64,000 bases of DNA from Buttiauxella noackiae ATCC 51607 (GTDB lineage: Bacteria > Pseudomonadota > Gammaproteobacteria > Enterobacterales > Enterobacteriaceae). The notes under the pieces are model-generated. The model did not search any database. It saw only the letters and a list, made by a program, of their open reading frames with translations, and was not told the DNA's origin. Location: assembly GCF_001654865.1 (NCBI RefSeq), contig NZ_LXEO01000017.1, forward strand, positions 186,001 to 250,000. The letters are read 5' to 3'. Both the position numbers and the translations under genes were made by a program. Below, in pieces: positions 5,811 to 46,349 of this stretch (positions are counted from its first letter, which is position 1; each line of letters opens with the position of its first letter).

Positions 5811-6029
5811 ATGATGCATTGCCCGTTATGCCAGGACGCAGCCCACGCGCGATCCAGCAGATATTTGAGCATAGAAACTAAAGAACGTTATCACCAGTGC
5901 CAGAATATCAACTGTGGATGCACTTTTGTCACCCATGAATCACTTGCTCGATATATCGTAAAACCTGGCGAAGTTGAACCAGCACCGCCCCACCCTAATC
6001 GTTATAAACAACAACAGCTCTGGATGTAG
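5811..6029 (+). CDS. ogr: Ogr/Delta-type late transcription activator
   Basis: This 72-residue protein is the same length as P2 Ogr and has the same zinc-binding pattern: CPLC near the N-terminus (MMHCPLCQDAAHARSSRY) and the second cysteine pair in CQNINCGCTF, followed by RYIVKPGEV. Ogr proteins bind upstream of phage late promoters and contact the RNA polymerase alpha subunit to switch on capsid, lysis and tail operons. The start at 5811 aligns with the P2 N-terminus and has an AGAGGGG SD. A strong terminator follows directly. Confidence 0.95.
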   Translation: MMHCPLCQDAAHARSSRYLSIETKERYHQCQNINCGCTFVTHESLARYIVKPGEVEPAPPHPNRYKQQQLWM

Positions 6030-6056
6030 AAAAAGCCTGCGAAAGCAGGTTTTTTT
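6030..6056 (+). terminator. Intrinsic terminator after ogr
   Basis: Hairpin CCTGC-GAAA-GCAGG is followed by a run of seven T. It closes the D-ogr transcript and isolates the integrase gene transcriptionally. Confidence 0.88.
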
Positions 6057-6134
6057 ATGCCTGCACTCCGTCTGAGATAACAAAGATACTCTTTTAAGTA
6101 AGCATTTGAATGTATGAGTTTGCAAAATCAAACA

Positions 6135-6163
6135 TTGAATACTGTTTAAATATACAGTATTTT
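6135..6163 (+). promoter_or_regulatory. Putative int promoter overlapped by a LexA (SOS) box
   Basis: CTGTTTAAATATACAG at 6142-6157 matches the LexA consensus CTGT-N8-ACAG, and the symmetry continues outward to ATACTGT/ACAGTAT (6140-6160). It sits in the spacer of a candidate promoter, TTGAAT (6135-6140) and TATTTT (6158-6163) 17 bp apart, so LexA bound here would block transcription of int. The wider region (about 6121-6182) is an imperfect palindrome. Promoter elements are inferred by eye. Confidence 0.7.
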
Positions 6164-6192
6164 TCAATCATTTGATTTAGCAGGATTTACAC

Positions 6193-7230
6193 ATGACCGT
6201 ACGAAAGCAAGCTGATGGACAATGGCTTTGCGATGTTTATATCGATGGGCGCGGCAGTAAGCGTGTACGCAAGAAATTCTCCACTAAAGGTGAAGCGCTT
6301 GCCTATGAAAGTTATCAGTTGGAACAAGCGAAGCAAAAACCCTGGATGGCAGAGAAGGATGACCGTCGACATCTAAGTGAACTAATTGAGCTATGGTACA
6401 AGTTACATGGTTGCTCTCTTAGTGATAAGAAAGGTCGCTTGGGTAAGCTGCATATAATATGTAATGGGTTAGGCGATCCCGTCGCCTCTCAAATCACAGC
6501 TAAAGATTGGGCGCATTATCGGGATAGACGACTCACCGGCCAGATTGCTAACGGATATAAAACCAGTGAGAAGTCACTTAAGGTTTCCATCGGAACGGTG
6601 AACTGTGAACATGCTTTTCTGCGGGCAGTGTTTAATGAATTAACCCGACTTGGGGAGGTTAACTACCCTAACCCACTCAAAAATATTCGTGAGTTTGATG
6701 AGCCTGAAAAAGAAATGTCCTGGCTTACTGACGATGAAGTGAAAAGATTGATGGGTGCGTGTCGCGGGCATGGAAATCCTGAATTAACCCTGATTGTAAA
6801 AATCTGCCTTTCCACCGGAGCACGTTGGAGTGAAGCGGCAAATCTTAAGAAATCTCAACTCTCACCTAATAAGATTACTTTCGTAAACACGAAGGGTAAA
6901 AAGAACCGAACAGTTCCAATATCTGACGAATTATATAAGCAACTTATTGAGCGTGACGGTAAGCCTTTTGAGCAATGTTATCGCCAGTTTTACCGAGTAA
7001 TAAAAATTGCAGGACTTCAATTACCAGAAGGCCAAATGAGTCATGTACTTAGGCATACATTTGCCAGTCATTTTATGATGGGAGGCGGGAATATTATTGT
7101 CCTGCAAAGAATTTTGGGGCATTCTGATATTCGAGTTACGATGCGTTATGCCCATTTTGCACCTGACCATCTTGAGGATGCGCTTATTTTAAACCCGCTC
7201 AGTAAACTCGGCGGGGCGTCCACAAAGTGA
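6193..7230 (+). CDS. int: Prophage tyrosine recombinase (integrase)
   Basis: This encodes a 345-residue site-specific recombinase. An N-terminal AP2-like arm-binding part (residues 1-50, with VYIDGRGSKRVRKKF) and a SAM-like core-binding domain (about 60-170) precede the catalytic domain (about 175-335). The active-site set is complete: R211 in GARWSE, K234/K236 in TKGKKNR, H284 and R287 in SHVLRH, H310 in LGHSD, and nucleophile Y319 in MRYAHF. It is adjacent to the phage-host junction in sdsR, so it is the likely integrase of this prophage. Its AT-rich composition contrasts with the GC-rich tail genes. Unlike P2, where int faces ogr across attP, here int lies in tandem downstream of ogr. Confidence 0.95.
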   Translation: MTVRKQADGQWLCDVYIDGRGSKRVRKKFSTKGEALAYESYQLEQAKQKPWMAEKDDRRHLSELIELWYKLHGCSLSDKKGRLGKLHIICNGLGDPVASQITAKDWAHYRDRRLTGQIANGYKTSEKSLKVSIGTVNCEHAFLRAVFNELTRLGEVNYPNPLKNIREFDEPEKEMSWLTDDEVKRLMGACRGHGNPELTLIVKICLSTGARWSEAANLKKSQLSPNKITFVNTKGKKNRTVPISDELYKQLIERDGKPFEQCYRQFYRVIKIAGLQLPEGQMSHVLRHTFASHFMMGGGNIIVLQRILGHSDIRVTMRYAHFAPDHLEDALILNPLSKLGGASTK

Positions 7231-40711: not shown

Positions 40712-42445
40712 GTGAATATTCAGGCTCTTCTCTCAGATAAAGTCAGTCAGGCACTGATTGCCGCAGGTGCACCTGCGGATTGCGAACCACAGGTTCGTCA
40801 GTCAGCAAAAGTTCAGTTCGGCGACTATCAGGCCAATGGCGTGATGTCAGTTGCAAAATCACTGGGCAAGCCACCACGACAAGTCGCAGAGTTGGTGATT
40901 GCCAATCTGGATTTGACCGGAATTGCCAGCAAAGTTGAAATCGCAGGCCCTGGCTTCATTAATATCTTCCTGGACCCGGCGTTCCTGGCGAAAAACGTGG
41001 ATGCAGCAGTGGCCTCCGATCGCGTTGGCGTCGATACCGTCGCGCCACAAACTATCGTTGTCGACTATTCCGCGCCAAACGTGGCGAAAGAGATGCACGT
41101 CGGCCACATCCGCTCCACCATTATTGGTGACGCAGCGGTGCGCACGCTGGAATTCCTCGGCCACAAAGTTATCCGCGCAAACCACGTCGGTGACTGGGGC
41201 ACGCAGTTCGGTATGCTGATCGCGTATCTCGAAAAGCAGCAGCAGGAAAACGCGGGTGAAATGGCGCTGGCGGACCTGGAAGAGTTCTACCGTGCCGCCA
41301 AGAAACACTACGATGAAGATGCAGAGTTTGCCGAGCGCGCGCGCGGTTACGTGGTAAAACTGCAAGGCGGTGACGAATACTGCCGCGAAATGTGGCGCAA
41401 GCTGGTCGATATCACCATGACCCAGAACCAACAGACTTATGACCGCCTGAACGTCACGCTGACCCGCGACGACGTAATGGGTGAAAGTCTGTACAACCCA
41501 ATGCTGCCGGGCATCGTGGCAGACCTGAAAGCCAAAGGTCTGGCAGTTGAAAGCGAAGGCGCAACCGTAGTGTTCCTGGACGAGTTCAAGAACAAAGACG
41601 GCGACCCGATGGGCGTGATCATCCAGAAAAAAGATGGCGGCTATCTGTACACCACCACCGATATCGCCTGCGCGAAATACCGCTACGAAACCCTGCATGC
41701 CGACCGCGTTCTGTACTTTATCGACTCCCGCCAGCACCAGCACCTGATGCAGGCATGGACCATCGTGCGTAAAGCCGGTTACGTTCCGGAATCCGTCACG
41801 CTGGAACACCAGATGTTCGGTATGATGCTGGGCAAAGACGGCAAGCCGTTCAAAACCCGTTCCGGCGGCACGGTTAAACTGACCGATCTGCTCGACGAAG
41901 CGATGGAACGCGCGCGTAATCTGGTAGCCGAGAAAAACCCGGACATGCCTGCGGATGAGCTGGAGCAACTGGCGAAATCCGTCGGCATCGGCGCGGTGAA
42001 ATACGCCGACCTGTCGAAAAGCCGCACCACCGACTACATCTTCGACTGGGACAACATGCTGGCCTTCGAAGGCAACACCGCGCCGTATATGCAATATGCC
42101 TACACCCGCGTGCTGTCTGTGTTCCGTAAAGCCGACATTGATGAAGCACAATTGCTGAAAGCACCAGTGGTGATTACTGAAGACCGCGAAGCACAGTTGG
42201 CGGCACGTCTGCTGCAATTTGAAGAAACCCTGAATGTGGTTGCGCGTGATGGTACACCACACGTGATGTGTAGTTACTTGTACGACGTAGCAGGTCTGTT
42301 CTCTGGTTTCTACGAGCACTGCCCAATTCTGAGCGCTGACTCTATTGAAGCGCGTAATAGCCGCCTGAAACTGGCTCTGTTGACCGCGAAAACGCTGAAG
42401 CTGGGTCTGGATACCCTGGGTATCGAAACTGTAGAACGTATGTAA
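40712..42445 (+). CDS. argS: Arginyl-tRNA synthetase
   Basis: This encodes a 577-residue class Ia synthetase, identical in length to E. coli ArgRS. It has the N-terminal additional domain, the class I HIGH-like motif in [20 protein letters not shown], and a DALR anticodon domain at the C-terminus ending VERM. The start is GTG at 40712 with AAGG upstream, as in E. coli. Confidence 0.98.
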
Positions 42446-42491: not shown

Positions 42492-43283
42492 TTAGCGAAC
42501 AATTCCCCGCGCCGACCGAGCAAAAAACCGGTCATAAAGTCCAATCACCGGATAATCACTCTCCAGTATTTTCAAAGATCTCTTCACTTCTTCTATCGCC
42601 AGCGCCTGGTTGTAAAACCGCTCATACAATATATGAATCAAATCCTGCTGTTCTGGCTCTAACGCCTGAAATGCTTTCGAACCTATGTTGATACCCAGCG
42701 GCACGGCGCGGTTACCACCAGCCGTCACAAACGGCGGCACATCCTGAACCACTGCTGATTGGTCGAGGATCTTAACCCCACTCGCCAATATACAAAATTG
42801 ATGGATAGCACACATAAAACCTATCTGTGCATCATCATCAAGCTCAACGTGCCCGGCAAGCCCACTGTTATCACCAATCAATGTGCCATTACCGACCACA
42901 CAATCATGACCGACATGCACACAATTCAAAAAGCGATTGTCATTACCGATGAGAGTGGTGCTAAGCCCCTGAATCGTTCCACGATGAATAGTGGTATTTT
43001 TGCCAATCTGATTCCGGTCACCAATAACGACCGTCGTCGGCTCAGCGGCATATTTAAGATCCTGATTCGCTTCACCTATGGATGAGAACTGGCCGAAAGT
43101 ATTGTCACAGCCGATTGTTGTCAGGCCATTAATTACCGAGTAAGCACCAACAACAGTTCCTTCGCCTATCACGACACCTGCGGAAATAACACAAAACGGG
43201 CCAATACTTACATGCGCACCGAGCACCACACCCGGTTCCACAATACTATTACTGGCAACCCGGGCTAACGGGGAAATAGACAT
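42492..43283 (-). CDS. LpxA-like acyltransferase (diverged paralogue)
   Basis: This 263-residue left-handed beta-helix hexapeptide-repeat acyltransferase aligns end to end with E. coli LpxA (262 aa), for example GEANQDLKYAAEPT, HRGTIQG and the C-terminus FFARSARGIVR. The catalytic His (E. coli H125) and H122, H144 and H160 are all present in VHVGHDC, LAGHV and IHQFC. Residues that contact the substrates differ: the hydrocarbon-ruler glycine G173 is Asp, E200 is Gly, R204 is Phe, R205 is Gln, and H191 is Arg. It is not in the lpxD-fabZ-lpxA-lpxB cluster but beside argS. The ATG at 43283 has AGGA 7 nt upstream. It is probably an O- or N-acyltransferase with altered acyl-chain or sugar-nucleotide preference. 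Confidence 0.88.
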   Translation of the reverse strand: MSISPLARVASNSIVEPGVVLGAHVSIGPFCVISAGVVIGEGTVVGAYSVINGLTTIGCDNTFGQFSSIGEANQDLKYAAEPTTVVIGDRNQIGKNTTIHRGTIQGLSTTLIGNDNRFLNCVHVGHDCVVGNGTLIGDNSGLAGHVELDDDAQIGFMCAIHQFCILASGVKILDQSAVVQDVPPFVTAGGNRAVPLGINIGSKAFQALEPEQQDLIHILYERFYNQALAIEEVKRSLKILESDYPVIGLYDRFFARSARGIVR

Positions 43284-43579
43284 CAATTTATCCTGATGAC
43301 GGCACGAAACGGAGAACGCCTATCATCGTTTAGTTATTAATCCAGACCAGGGATCAATAAGAAAGGAGGGGTCGAAAGGGAAGCTCCGCTTCGCCATTCT
43401 CATTATCGTTAAGGAGGTAAAAACCAGTGAAGGGCTTATCGATTGCGGCAGCATAATGAATTGCGACCCACATTACGCCATTTATTTATTATTAAATTGG
43501 AGGAACTTTATGTGGTTTGCCAGCAGGTTTGATTTCGCAGTAATTTGCAGGCCCGGTTCCCCAGGCCTGTGATATGCAT
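43284..43579. other. Spacer between the LpxA-like and GH105 genes
   Basis: This 296-nt region has no conventional gene. It holds two very short plus-strand reading frames with strong SD sequences (GTG at about 43427, 9 codons; ATG at 43510, 20 codons), an AT-rich stretch, and the promoter of the LpxA-like gene near its left end. Confidence 0.6.
43510..43572 (+). CDS. Possible 20-residue small ORF
   Basis: ATG at 43510 is preceded by GGAGGA 5 nt upstream and encodes a 20-residue hydrophobic/aromatic peptide starting MWFASRFDFAV. The 3' half forms a hairpin (CAGGCC/GGCCTG). Nothing else supports translation and no homologue is known to me. Confidence 0.25.
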   Translation: MWFASRFDFAVICRPGSPGL

Positions 43580-44719
43580 TTACATATAAATCCGCAGATA
43601 CTCGCCCAGACAAAGTATCGCCATCGCCTGCCCGTACGGCATTGAGGTCAGCGGGATTTGGCGATAAAACTCCAGGTTACTGCCCATTCCTGTGCCAAAT
43701 GAAACCTGCAATAACTCCCCTTCCGGGGAGATATTTCTCACAACTCCCTTCATCGCCTTCTCAGCGACTTGCGCATACTCTTTACCAATGTAGCGTTTGC
43801 GAATTCCTTTCAGGATGCCGTAGGCAAAGCCTGCCGTTGCTGAGGCCTCCAGATACGATTGTGGATCGTCGAGCAAGGTGTGCCACAAACCACTGTCGTC
43901 CTGGCATTTCGCCAATGCCGCAACCTGATTTTCCAGTACCTGTACCAGATAGCGACGCACCGCGTTGTTCTCAGGTAAATCCACCAGCTCAAGGAAGTCT
44001 GGAATGACTATCGTCAACCAGCTATTCCCCCGCGCCCAACGGGCGTGAGCAAAGTTATGGTTGCCTTCGTAGTTCCAGCCGTGGAACCACAGCCCGGTCT
44101 CCCTATCCATCAGGTTCTGCACATGTAACAGGAATTGATAGGTCGCCTCTTCCACATACTCCGGGCGATTTAGCAATTTGCCAATTTTTGCCAGCGGTAA
44201 TACGGTCATCATCAGCGTGTCGTCCCACATCTGCTGATGGTTCTCTTCAGCAAGCGTAATGTGCTGCATGCCGCCATGTTCGGTACGTGGCATTTCATAC
44301 ATTGCCCACTCAGCCCAGCTTTCAAGCCACGGCAAATACGAAGGGTCATGCGTCTCTTCGTAGCGATAAGCCAGTGTCAGGAACGGTGCCATAGTATTGA
44401 CGTTTTTGGTGGTAGCACCTTCTGCGAAACGGTCGGCAAACCAGCTATCAATAATTTCGCACATCTTCTTATCGCCTGTCTGGCGATAATATTGATACAT
44501 GCCGTACAGACCGACGCCATGCGTCCACTCCCAACCAGCCCAACCTTTGGTATCAATGACTCTTCCGTCATCCAGTCGCAGTAAGAATTGGCCCGTTTCA
44601 TCCTTAATATTAATCAGATTATCCGTCACCTTGTGGATCAGGGTTTTTAACTCATCCCGGGCAATAAAATGCTCCGGCTGGCACAGTAAAGGGCTGTGTT
44701 TGACGGGATAAATAATCAT
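43580..44719 (-). CDS. rhiN: GH105 unsaturated rhamnogalacturonyl hydrolase (RhiN/YteR type)
   Basis: This 379-residue protein has the (alpha/alpha)6-barrel family GH105 pattern: WAGWEWTHGVGLYGMYQYY, the active-site aspartate region QMWDDTLMMTVLPLAK (D166/D167), ARWARGNSWLTIVIPDFLEL and DDSGLWHTLLDDPQSYLEASATAGFAYG. Such enzymes remove the unsaturated galacturonyl residue from rhamnogalacturonan disaccharides made by lyases. No signal peptide is seen, so it acts in the cytoplasm. It overlaps the transporter stop by one base (TAATG). The pair matches the Dickeya rhiT-rhiN operon; the symbol is by analogy. Confidence 0.85.
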   Translation of the reverse strand: MIIYPVKHSPLLCQPEHFIARDELKTLIHKVTDNLINIKDETGQFLLRLDDGRVIDTKGWAGWEWTHGVGLYGMYQYYRQTGDKKMCEIIDSWFADRFAEGATTKNVNTMAPFLTLAYRYEETHDPSYLPWLESWAEWAMYEMPRTEHGGMQHITLAEENHQQMWDDTLMMTVLPLAKIGKLLNRPEYVEEATYQFLLHVQNLMDRETGLWFHGWNYEGNHNFAHARWARGNSWLTIVIPDFLELVDLPENNAVRRYLVQVLENQVAALAKCQDDSGLWHTLLDDPQSYLEASATAGFAYGILKGIRKRYIGKEYAQVAEKAMKGVVRNISPEGELLQVSFGTGMGSNLEFYRQIPLTSMPYGQAMAILCLGEYLRIYM

Positions 44720-46311
44720 TAACTTAACCTCTGTGATGAAGTATTCGAACGCATTGCAGCAGCCTCTTTCAATGACGGAGCTGCAGGTTTATTACGGTTG
44801 AGATAGCCAATATTGTTGTTGCCCCAAAGCGTGTCGTAAGGCATACCCGCCAGCATTTCGACTGTAGCGCGAGCCTCCGGCGTAGTTGCTTCCGGAACCG
44901 GGCGGCCCGCAACACGCATCTTCGCCGTCTCTTCACGTAACACGCTGTGAGTTTGTAAATTGAGTCTAAAGCGCAGGGAAACTAAGAAACCGCATGCCAG
45001 TACCGCTACAGTACCGAAGCTTAAAATCATCAGGATTGTGTGGCTAACCGCAGGCGGCTGTGTGGTTTGCCCGGAAACAAAACCAGAAAGCTGCATCACG
45101 ATACCCACCAGCATCACGGCTCCTGCCTGAGACGCTTTACGCGTTAGCGTCATGATTCCGGCGAAGATCCCTTCACGACGCTGGCCGGTAATCACTTCAT
45201 CAACATCAGCAATATAGGTGTAGGTATTCCACGGCACATAGTTGATGCCGCCACGGCCCAGGCCGGCGATAGCAGAAACCAACATCAGCAGTGAGAAGAC
45301 ATCGCTTAATCCTGCGTAATACAACAACGCGTAAGAGATAGAACTCAGACCAAAAAGCACCACAACCATTCGGTAGGACGGAGCCGGGCCATATTTGATA
45401 CACAGAGGAATCATGCCGATAACAGCAATAAATTGCAGAATCGCCATGGTGCCAAGCAAGCTCGAAGCCATGCTTGCACTTTGCATCAGCACAAACACCA
45501 CATAGTAGGTAAACACAGCATTGAACACGTCCTGAGCAATATACCCGCCCAGATACATGCCCAAGTGTTGGCGGAAGATCTTAACGCGCAGCGTAGAAGT
45601 CAGTTCAACGTTCAGGCGTTTCATACTTTGCGCAAACGTCAGGGTTTTCTTCTCTTCTTCTGCACGCAGTGCCGCTTCAGTCCATTCTGAACGTGGACGC
45701 TCCCAGGTGAAGAACCAGACGAGTGTTAGCACGATGGCACATATAGTGGCGAATACCAGGCTTGCGTAGAAGAAGGAGACTGCGTTGTCTTTCCCGAAAT
45801 GATTTAACAAAATACCCGGCAGGAAGGCGGCAAGAATCGCGGAAAGTTGCGCCATTGAGATACGTGCGCCTGAGAATTTGGTTTTCTGTTTGAAATCATC
45901 GGTCATTTCCGGAACCAGTGTTTCATACGGCACCAGAATCATGGTGTAGACCACATCAAAAATCAGGTAGGTCACCAGGTAATACCAATAACTCATCTCG
46001 CCAACCCACATAAAGCTGTAGCTAAAGACCAGCGGGATTCCGAGCATAATAAAGAACTTACGACGACCAAAACGTCTGCCAAGCCAGGTAGAACCAAAGT
46101 TATCGGTCAGGAAGCCCATCAGCGGACTGACGACCGCATCCAGCACCCTGGCCATGGCGAAAATAAACGTTGCTTCAATCGGTGAGAGGCCACAGAAGGT
46201 AGTATAGAAGTAGAGCAACCAGGCGGCGGTGAGTGCCGTCGTCCCCGCGCCGAGAAAATCCCCGGAGCCGTAGGCAAGATAATTTGCCAATCCAATTTTA
46301 CGTATTTTCAT
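44719..46311 (-). CDS. rhiT: GPH-family oligosaccharide:cation symporter (RhiT/TogT-like)
   Basis: This encodes 530 residues with about twelve membrane helices of the glycoside-pentoside-hexuronide family. Marker segments are the N-terminal GLANYLAYGSGDFLGAG, RVLDAVVSPLMGFLTDNFGSTWLGRRFGRRKFFI, and YETLVPEMTDDFKQKTKFSGARISMAQLSA. The C-terminal ~70 residues are soluble. Coupled to a GH105 enzyme, it most likely imports rhamnogalacturonan oligosaccharides. The ATG at 46311 is preferred over TTG 9 nt earlier. The promoter lies in the 268-nt gap to flhE, with inverted repeats in the leader (46350-46404). Confidence 0.87.
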   Translation of the reverse strand: MKIRKIGLANYLAYGSGDFLGAGTTALTAAWLLYFYTTFCGLSPIEATFIFAMARVLDAVVSPLMGFLTDNFGSTWLGRRFGRRKFFIMLGIPLVFSYSFMWVGEMSYWYYLVTYLIFDVVYTMILVPYETLVPEMTDDFKQKTKFSGARISMAQLSAILAAFLPGILLNHFGKDNAVSFFYASLVFATICAIVLTLVWFFTWERPRSEWTEAALRAEEEKKTLTFAQSMKRLNVELTSTLRVKIFRQHLGMYLGGYIAQDVFNAVFTYYVVFVLMQSASMASSLLGTMAILQFIAVIGMIPLCIKYGPAPSYRMVVVLFGLSSISYALLYYAGLSDVFSLLMLVSAIAGLGRGGINYVPWNTYTYIADVDEVITGQRREGIFAGIMTLTRKASQAGAVMLVGIVMQLSGFVSGQTTQPPAVSHTILMILSFGTVAVLACGFLVSLRFRLNLQTHSVLREETAKMRVAGRPVPEATTPEARATVEMLAGMPYDTLWGNNNIGYLNRNKPAAPSLKEAAAMRSNTSSQRLS

Positions 46312-46349
46312 TGCCGTCAAACCCCGTTAATTTTTTTATGGAGATTGCA

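Follow-up and report, generated by a model that had tools for sequence, protein, structure and literature searches.

The closest described relative of the protein treated here is LpxA (UDP-N-acetylglucosamine 3-O-acyltransferase; NCBI models TIGR01852 and PRK05289), which opens the synthesis of lipid A, the anchor of the bacterial outer membrane. The two halves of its active site, a GlcNAc side and a UDP side, are contributed by different subunits (PMC7072397); the UDP side accommodates the uridine diphosphate and also forms the lining of the acyl groove. In E. coli numbering the UDP pocket given by that source comprises the apolar positions 116, 118, 134, 152 and 170 together with Asn198, Glu200, Arg204 and Arg205 (its table prints Glu201; we took position 200, the counterpart of Pseudomonas Glu196 in that source), and the GlcNAc pocket comprises positions 73-76, 125, 143 and 144, to which we added 160 and 161 from its Pseudomonas list. 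The acyl channel is lined by G173 and capped by H191 (PMC6286764), and the exchange G173M switches E. coli LpxA to C10 (PMC6408518).

A second LpxA gene as such is already annotated in print: a table of PMC3079665 on Yersinia enterocolitica has an entry lpxA2 (YE2286), labelled as a second gene for an acyl-UDP-GlcNAc O-acyltransferase, and counts it among the functions missing from strain W22703. The lpxA2(ts) of E. coli is an allele of the ordinary lpxA (PMC9456370, PMC13333357). Among the papers that searches of PMC full text brought up, a collection outside which most subscription journals lie, no title or abstract opening describes an LpxA2 family or a phage-borne LpxA. As regards phages, two defence-rich loci have been reported in P2-like phages, and the clones that gave near-complete protection were found to carry genes for LPS or capsule, which a loss of adsorption would explain (PMC9519451), and the gpA-gpQ locus has been described as well (PMC9122126).

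The window, i.e. the whole stretch of 64,000 nucleotides of Buttiauxella noackiae ATCC 51607 that was analysed, carries the gene of an LpxA paralogue, named LpxA2 in the following (Table 1). Its last sense codon ends at 42495 and the stop codon occupies 42494-42492; the plus strand of 42492-43283 contains four stops. The preliminary description had proposed a second LpxA-like protein with likeness over the full length, and this was borne out: residues 7-263 of the query aligned with E. coli LpxA (1lxa) at E 1.5e-73, the match to NCBIfam PRK05289 reached 246.8 bits (cut-off 226), that to TIGR01852 reached 226.5 bits, just below the cut-off of 231.05, and the C-terminal domain matched Pfam Acetyltransf_11 with 32.1 bits. 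An ordinary lpxA elsewhere in the genome, whose presence had been left to be confirmed, exists on another contig (G000:C68:128128-128895) and is 48% identical to LpxA2; it lies directly downstream of a 342-aa frame with a weaker match, taken for lpxD. In the lipid A cluster lpxA stands beside lpxD; the gene of the window is a separate locus without lpxD beside it, apart from this cluster as had been stated.

Table 1. Position of LpxA2 and its neighbours in the window, and of the phage-borne copies on their own contigs
Feature	Position	Strand	Remark
argS (named by eye)	40712..42445	plus	convergent neighbour, context only
LpxA2, LpxA-derived left-handed beta-helix acyltransferase paralogue (predicted), 263 aa	43283..42492	minus	ATG start
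Upstream intergenic region of LpxA2	43284..43579	minus	conserved blocks, one sigma-70-like match
GH88 family hydrolase	43580..44719	minus	upstream neighbour on the LpxA2 strand, context only
GPH-type sugar transporter	44719..46320	minus	context only
LpxA2 cargo, IMG/VR contig L187	2181-2972		between S-like and V-like genes
LpxA2 cargo, IMG/VR contig L189	1207-1998		between S-like and V-like genes
LpxA2 cargo, IMG/VR contig L190	5001-5792		between S-like and V-like genes

In the MAFFT alignment (E. coli numbering) the four active-site histidines H122, H125, H144 and H160 are intact in the window protein, and the substitutions named earlier, G173D, H191R, E200G, R204F and R205Q, are all present, although H191R, true of this protein, is not a trait of the clade, where 38 LpxA2 rows have R in 20 cases, H in 17 and Y in one. 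Further changes that had gone unnamed are L116R, M118L, I134L, I152Q, G155F, M170K, G172L, C174Q and G201S. The AlphaFold2 model on A2 was judged wrong (mean pLDDT 77.9; TM not above 0.40 and about 13 A rmsd against the LpxA structures); its alignment was shallow, and the beta-helix is perhaps of the wrong hand.

The reading that we prefer, tentatively and with rather less than even confidence, is that LpxA2 is an active O-acyltransferase with a changed donor and/or acceptor, which would alter LPS or another surface glycan. Judged from the aligned residues, the GlcNAc pocket and the His125/Asp126 catalytic apparatus are kept, and the other half of the inter-subunit site is remodelled, polar, charged and aromatic residues having come in. 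The two pockets were compared in 46 aligned LpxA2 rows and 33 family LpxA rows against 20,000 random draws of nine positions. All nine positions of the GlcNAc pocket were kept in 46/46 rows (100%), a value reached by none of the draws, and at the nine positions of the UDP pocket the LpxA residue was kept in 12% of the cells, with three draws as low; by position, Asn198 was kept in 67% of the rows and all others in 0-17%. The 185 positions conserved in canonical LpxA were kept on average to 59% in the same 46 rows. The alteration of the substrate pocket is, accordingly, clade-wide and more extensive than had been claimed. A first run with 38 rows gave 11% for the UDP pocket, 100% for the GlcNAc pocket and 58% for the conserved positions, with 4 and 0 draws as extreme. 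In this run and in the conservation test the 38 rows left out the most diverged copies (L088, L089, L090) and included the phage copies L187, L188 and L190; the 38 rows of the residue tables are a different set. L042, where LpxA2 was found by tblastn and there was no automatic ORF call, is absent from the residue tables and the trees, and L191, with its broken frame, from all alignments. Q73, D74, K76, H99, H122, H125, D126, G143, H144, H160, Q161 and R258 were found in 38/38 LpxA2 rows. The C-terminal domain has a mean net positive charge of 0.8 in 38 LpxA2 rows versus 3.7 in 14 family LpxA rows, and this lower charge could mean a weaker binding of ACP.

The strongest competitor of this reading, in our estimate rather unlikely by itself, is that LpxA2 is an ordinary second LpxA isoenzyme, which would acylate UDP-GlcNAc with a chain of another length and change lipid A under some condition. 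In favour of it, LpxA2 has the entire catalytic half intact, and both NCBI equivalog cut-offs (PRK05289 and TIGR01852) were passed by seven of the eight non-canonical copies tested, the window copy passing one, which also weighs against the reading we prefer. Canonical LpxA is itself quite variable at the ruler position, 173 (M 27, G 21, F 8, R 6, A 2, L 2 and I 1 in 67 rows), and the chain-length effect of G173M in E. coli (PMC6408518) likewise fits an isoenzyme. So does the neighbourhood in other genera, where a phosphoethanolamine transferase gene of EptA type is transcribed divergently from LpxA2 in 12 loci (L079-L089, L245; 11 clustered, L245 read by eye); the gene of the one locus that was domain-tested (L080:10406-12034) has Pfam EptA_B_N and Sulfatase and passes the NCBI phosphoethanolamine-lipid A transferase domain model. 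The uridine side speaks against an isoenzyme. Of the nine UDP-pocket positions in the published list the window protein has lost the LpxA residue at eight, and R204, present in 67/67 canonical rows, is missing from 44/46 LpxA2 rows, F or Y standing there in 35/38; these canonical rows include distant Gammaproteobacteria, and 13 of them come from one genus with one duplicate among these (L023 = L100). Arginine was seen at neither 204 nor 205 in 43/46 LpxA2 rows, while among 68 canonical rows 52 had it at both positions and 16 had R204 alone. In line with the preferred reading, G201 (67/67 canonical rows) is A or S in 38/38 LpxA2 rows, and Asp at position 173 was counted in 27/38 LpxA2 rows and 0/67 canonical ones. 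The other frequent new residues (of 38 rows) are R116 (20), L118 (23), Q152 (27), F155 (16), K or R at 170 (23), A or L at 172 (28) and Q174 (27).

The genomic surroundings of LpxA2 differ between lineages. At the argS / GH88 / GPH transporter site it was found in 18 loci, from 18 genomes by their contigs, two of which have two extra genes between LpxA2 and argS. The pectin-sugar genes to which attention had been drawn, i.e. the GH88 hydrolase and the GPH transporter, do adjoin LpxA2; a functional link was nevertheless rejected, because they occur beside it only at this one syntenic site and the neighbours differ at the other loci examined. No lipid A or glycan-assembly gene is a neighbour at the Buttiauxella-type site, and this weighs against the preferred reading. 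In the upstream intergenic region blocks such as ATTTAATAATAAATAAATG and ATTCATTATGCT are conserved in most of ten aligned Buttiauxella-type orthologues, and a sigma-70-like match is situated at 43431..43402 (9 of 12; one match versus a shuffle mean of 2.1); LpxA2 is predicted to have a promoter of its own. At the locus of Enterobacter sp. R1(2018) (L039), upstream of LpxA2, one 942-aa frame replaces the GPH transporter and GH88 genes, by fusion or sequencing error. In most of the EptA-type loci DUF2891, DUF979, DUF969 and QueH genes stand on the other side of LpxA2. Two LpxA2 loci, one of them from Serratia, adjoin ecotin and two PAP2 phosphatase genes, the copies of Edaphovirga and Citrobacter R56 are near transposase genes, and others are solitary. 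As far as gene order can tell, LpxA2 sits in unrelated contexts in different lineages, and one branch of it is accessory cargo of P2/186-like prophages.

Within the genus Buttiauxella a second lpxA-like gene was detected in 11/12 genomes; in G011 argS and GH88 are both at contig ends exactly at the expected site, and its lack from this assembly may not be a true absence. Profile A1, built from 24 LpxA2 proteins, counted 34 LpxA2 loci in 33/392 sampled Enterobacteriaceae genomes, with the threshold set where the scores drop from 373.3 to 368.6 bits; these numbers are minima, as G058 holds a further copy below the threshold. Three of the lowest scorers (G125, G185, G050) have non-canonical residues, G125 keeping Arg at 204. 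Outside the family no LpxA2 was seen in 394 genomes of the order, where the best match had 358 bits, in the canonical range, and a very diverged copy could hide. The plasmid and isolate-phage collections gave no LpxA2 match of at least 60% identity (best-ranked 49.0% and 47.1%). The 792-bp query matched 671/5,426 E. coli genomes with one short piece each, which among the best 20 of the 671 was 16% of the query and always labelled lpxA.

A tree of 78 rows placed all 46 LpxA2 rows, among them four phage copies and four further diverged copies, on one side of a branch with support 100/97, beside 24 family LpxA and eight other Gammaproteobacteria; LpxA2 and family LpxA grouped together against these eight with 100/99. 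Family LpxA as one side of a branch received 69/73 only. An earlier tree, with 38 LpxA2 rows among its 105, contained the same LpxA2 split (100/99). The nesting of LpxA2 inside Enterobacteriaceae LpxA in that tree was not kept once 24 family LpxA rows were used; it had only 15 such rows, 13 of them from one genus, and its bootstrap had not settled. LpxA2 may be regarded as an old duplication of LpxA at the base of, or inside, the Enterobacteriaceae. Some copies deserve separate mention. Genome G189 has two LpxA2 copies in different contexts (L076, L077) besides the ordinary lpxA. A third, separately diverged LpxA copy of G058 (L242:8083-8931, minus strand; 57.6% to the canonical one; Lys173, Gln204, Gln205) is flanked by a tex-like and a greB-like gene (named by eye). 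Two copies of the LpxA2 branch from genus g40 (L243:7766-8569, L244:7389-8192) have a gap across 204-205 and nhaB/dsbB-like neighbours (by eye). A contig labelled Chryseobacterium sp. 18061 (L035) has a plainly enterobacterial argS-LpxA2-flhA synteny and is likely mislabelled or contaminated.

The arrangement of the LpxA site also allows for a division of labour between two proteins. LpxA2 might be a partner subunit in mixed trimers with LpxA, where its intact catalytic face would meet the UDP face of LpxA and its changed UDP face the catalytic face of LpxA, tuning LPS flux or chain choice; we hold this to be improbable. The origin of the GlcNAc and UDP sides of each site from different subunits (PMC7072397) is in its favour, exactly one of the two faces is conserved in LpxA2, and canonical lpxA was also present in 38/38 LpxA2 carriers checked, with 80-100% identity to that of the window genome. 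The low conservation of the UDP positions within LpxA2 (mean top-residue share 0.53 versus 0.72 for the average column) may mean that part of the rebuilt pocket is relaxed and not specialised, which weighs against the preferred reading. The exceptions among the UDP-side and groove changes, F204, D173, Q174 and Q152, are however well conserved and suggest a specific new pocket, and at an identity of 48% a mixing of LpxA2 with LpxA would be conjectural.

Of the 36 loci that profile A1 brought up in IMG/VR, five were LpxA2-like with 52-57% identity, and the next stood at 34%. In L187 and L190 an intact LpxA2 has a tail-completion gene on one side and a baseplate V-like gene on the other; the flanking genes of L190 were tested and matched phrog_26 and phrog_6142, and upstream of them there are terminase, head-tail adaptor, holin and endolysin genes. 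L189 aligned to L190 with a 161-bp gap, by which the S-like gene loses its last bases; in L191 the layout is that of L189 and L190, with the LpxA2 frame broken; L188 is without the stretch 1825-4650 of L190 (deletion or assembly join), and LpxA2 there follows the small terminase gene. The flanking S-like and V-like genes are 69 bp apart in phage 186, and the same gap holds a 328-aa protein without Pfam match in one E. coli prophage and a DUF262 and HEPN pair in the E. coli KV7 prophage (L248:2627-4241), the DUF262 protein matching PADLOC NsnA and PD-T4-2_A. Conserved flanks, the short gap of 186 and other cargo elsewhere mark an accessory site of the prophage for L187, L190 and, by DNA alignment, L189; the window gene has no phage genes directly beside it and does not lie at such a site. 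At an E cut-off of 0.001 neither the window protein nor the phage copy L190 matched a PADLOC model. The cargo has a G+C content of 42% versus 53.5% for the locus. Downstream of LpxA2 in L190 about 1.1 kb (5960-7023) precede the V-like gene with no frame above 63 codons, and this piece may be the remains of an earlier cargo.

The LpxA2 of Lelliottia WAP21 is flanked by prophage pieces, as L190 4471-5959, 7023-7207 and 7638-7928 align to its locus (L045) in order at 78-88%, and this chromosome holds a decayed remnant of an LpxA2-carrying prophage. The phage and Lelliottia copies make one group (100/100) inside the Buttiauxella-type clade (100/94), and because of this nesting the phage probably took LpxA2 from a Buttiauxella-type host. 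A domestication by many lineages was dropped, as these copies are one nested group and only that of Lelliottia shows a prophage deposit. For the same reason the phage carriage would be a late capture that need not indicate the original role; the preferred reading is weakened thereby, and mixed trimers as well as a lack of function gain in weight.

By the method of Nei and Gojobori dN/dS was 0.09-0.17 in seven host LpxA2 pairs, 0.015-0.027 in five canonical lpxA pairs of the genus, 0.26 in the Lelliottia-phage pair and 0.61 in two phage-phage pairs, the latter from very few changes. The host copies are under purifying selection. That LpxA2 is a decaying duplicate without current function is very improbable: host values several times those of the genus lpxA, the two phage pairs and the broken frame of L191 speak for it, but the host values are far below 1, the catalytic set is invariant in 38/38 LpxA2 rows, and none of the 34 family loci above 373 bits has an internal stop. 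The phage-phage ratio and the frame of L191 weigh against an active O-acyltransferase as well.

According to the reading that we prefer, LpxA2 would derive from LpxA by the old duplication, its homotrimer would transfer a shorter or more polar acyl group and/or work on a GlcNAc-type acceptor different from UDP-GlcNAc, and LPS or another surface glycan would be altered by what it makes. The receptor of P2 is the LPS core, and the benefit to the phage would be lysogenic conversion or superinfection exclusion. A change of surface glycolipids would suit both the phage carriage and the divergent phosphoethanolamine-transferase-type gene. A bolder form of this reading, which we consider doubtful, is a new enzyme class arisen from LpxA, with the GlcNAc half kept and a new donor or leaving-group half, the acylated sugar rewriting the surface glycan of the host; P2/186-like phages would have captured the gene from a Buttiauxella-like host as receptor-altering, superinfection-excluding cargo. 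LpxA2 is in any case real and family-wide, a variant of the LpxA fold and chemistry more unusual than first described, and may serve to change the cell surface, also when it is carried by phages. The link to P2/186-like prophages and the divergent phosphoethanolamine-transferase-type gene go beyond the first reading of the sequence. A diverged LpxA alongside the ordinary one would reveal how specificity gets rewritten, and could account for acylations of lipid A or glycans that are so far unassigned; if a prophage gene does act at the first sugar-lipid step, phages would have a new means of changing the receptor of their competitors. It should be emphasized that automated models label these genes plain LpxA, and so the family stays hidden.

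Compared with the known systems, LpxA2 agrees with LpxA in full-length homology, His125/Asp126, the oxyanion Gly143, the GlcNAc pocket and the C-terminal domain, and differs from it in the rebuilt UDP pocket and acyl groove, the extra locus off the canonical site, the patchy distribution and, for the window copy, a score short of TIGR01852. With the chain-length variants (P. aeruginosa Met169, E. coli G173M) it shares the change at ruler position 173 (PMC6408518), where it has Asp in contrast to their bulky apolar residue; the arginine pair is retained in P. aeruginosa LpxA as Arg200/Arg201 (PMC7072397), whereas in LpxA2 the uridine side is changed too. The Yersinia lpxA2 (YE2286) is likened to the clade by description only, on annotation and patchy presence. 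Like the accessory and defence genes of P2-like phages (fun, old, tin; loci of PMC9122126 and PMC9519451), the phage-borne LpxA2 is a small cargo between two conserved phage genes; unlike them it is a metabolic enzyme of sugar-lipid type, and the S-V gap differs from the gpA-gpQ locus (PMC9122126). It also recalls the acyltransferases and glucosyltransferases of serotype-converting phages, in that an enzyme brought by the phage could modify the LPS receptor. The latter are membrane enzymes acting on the O-antigen, whereas LpxA2 is the homologue of a soluble cytoplasmic enzyme.
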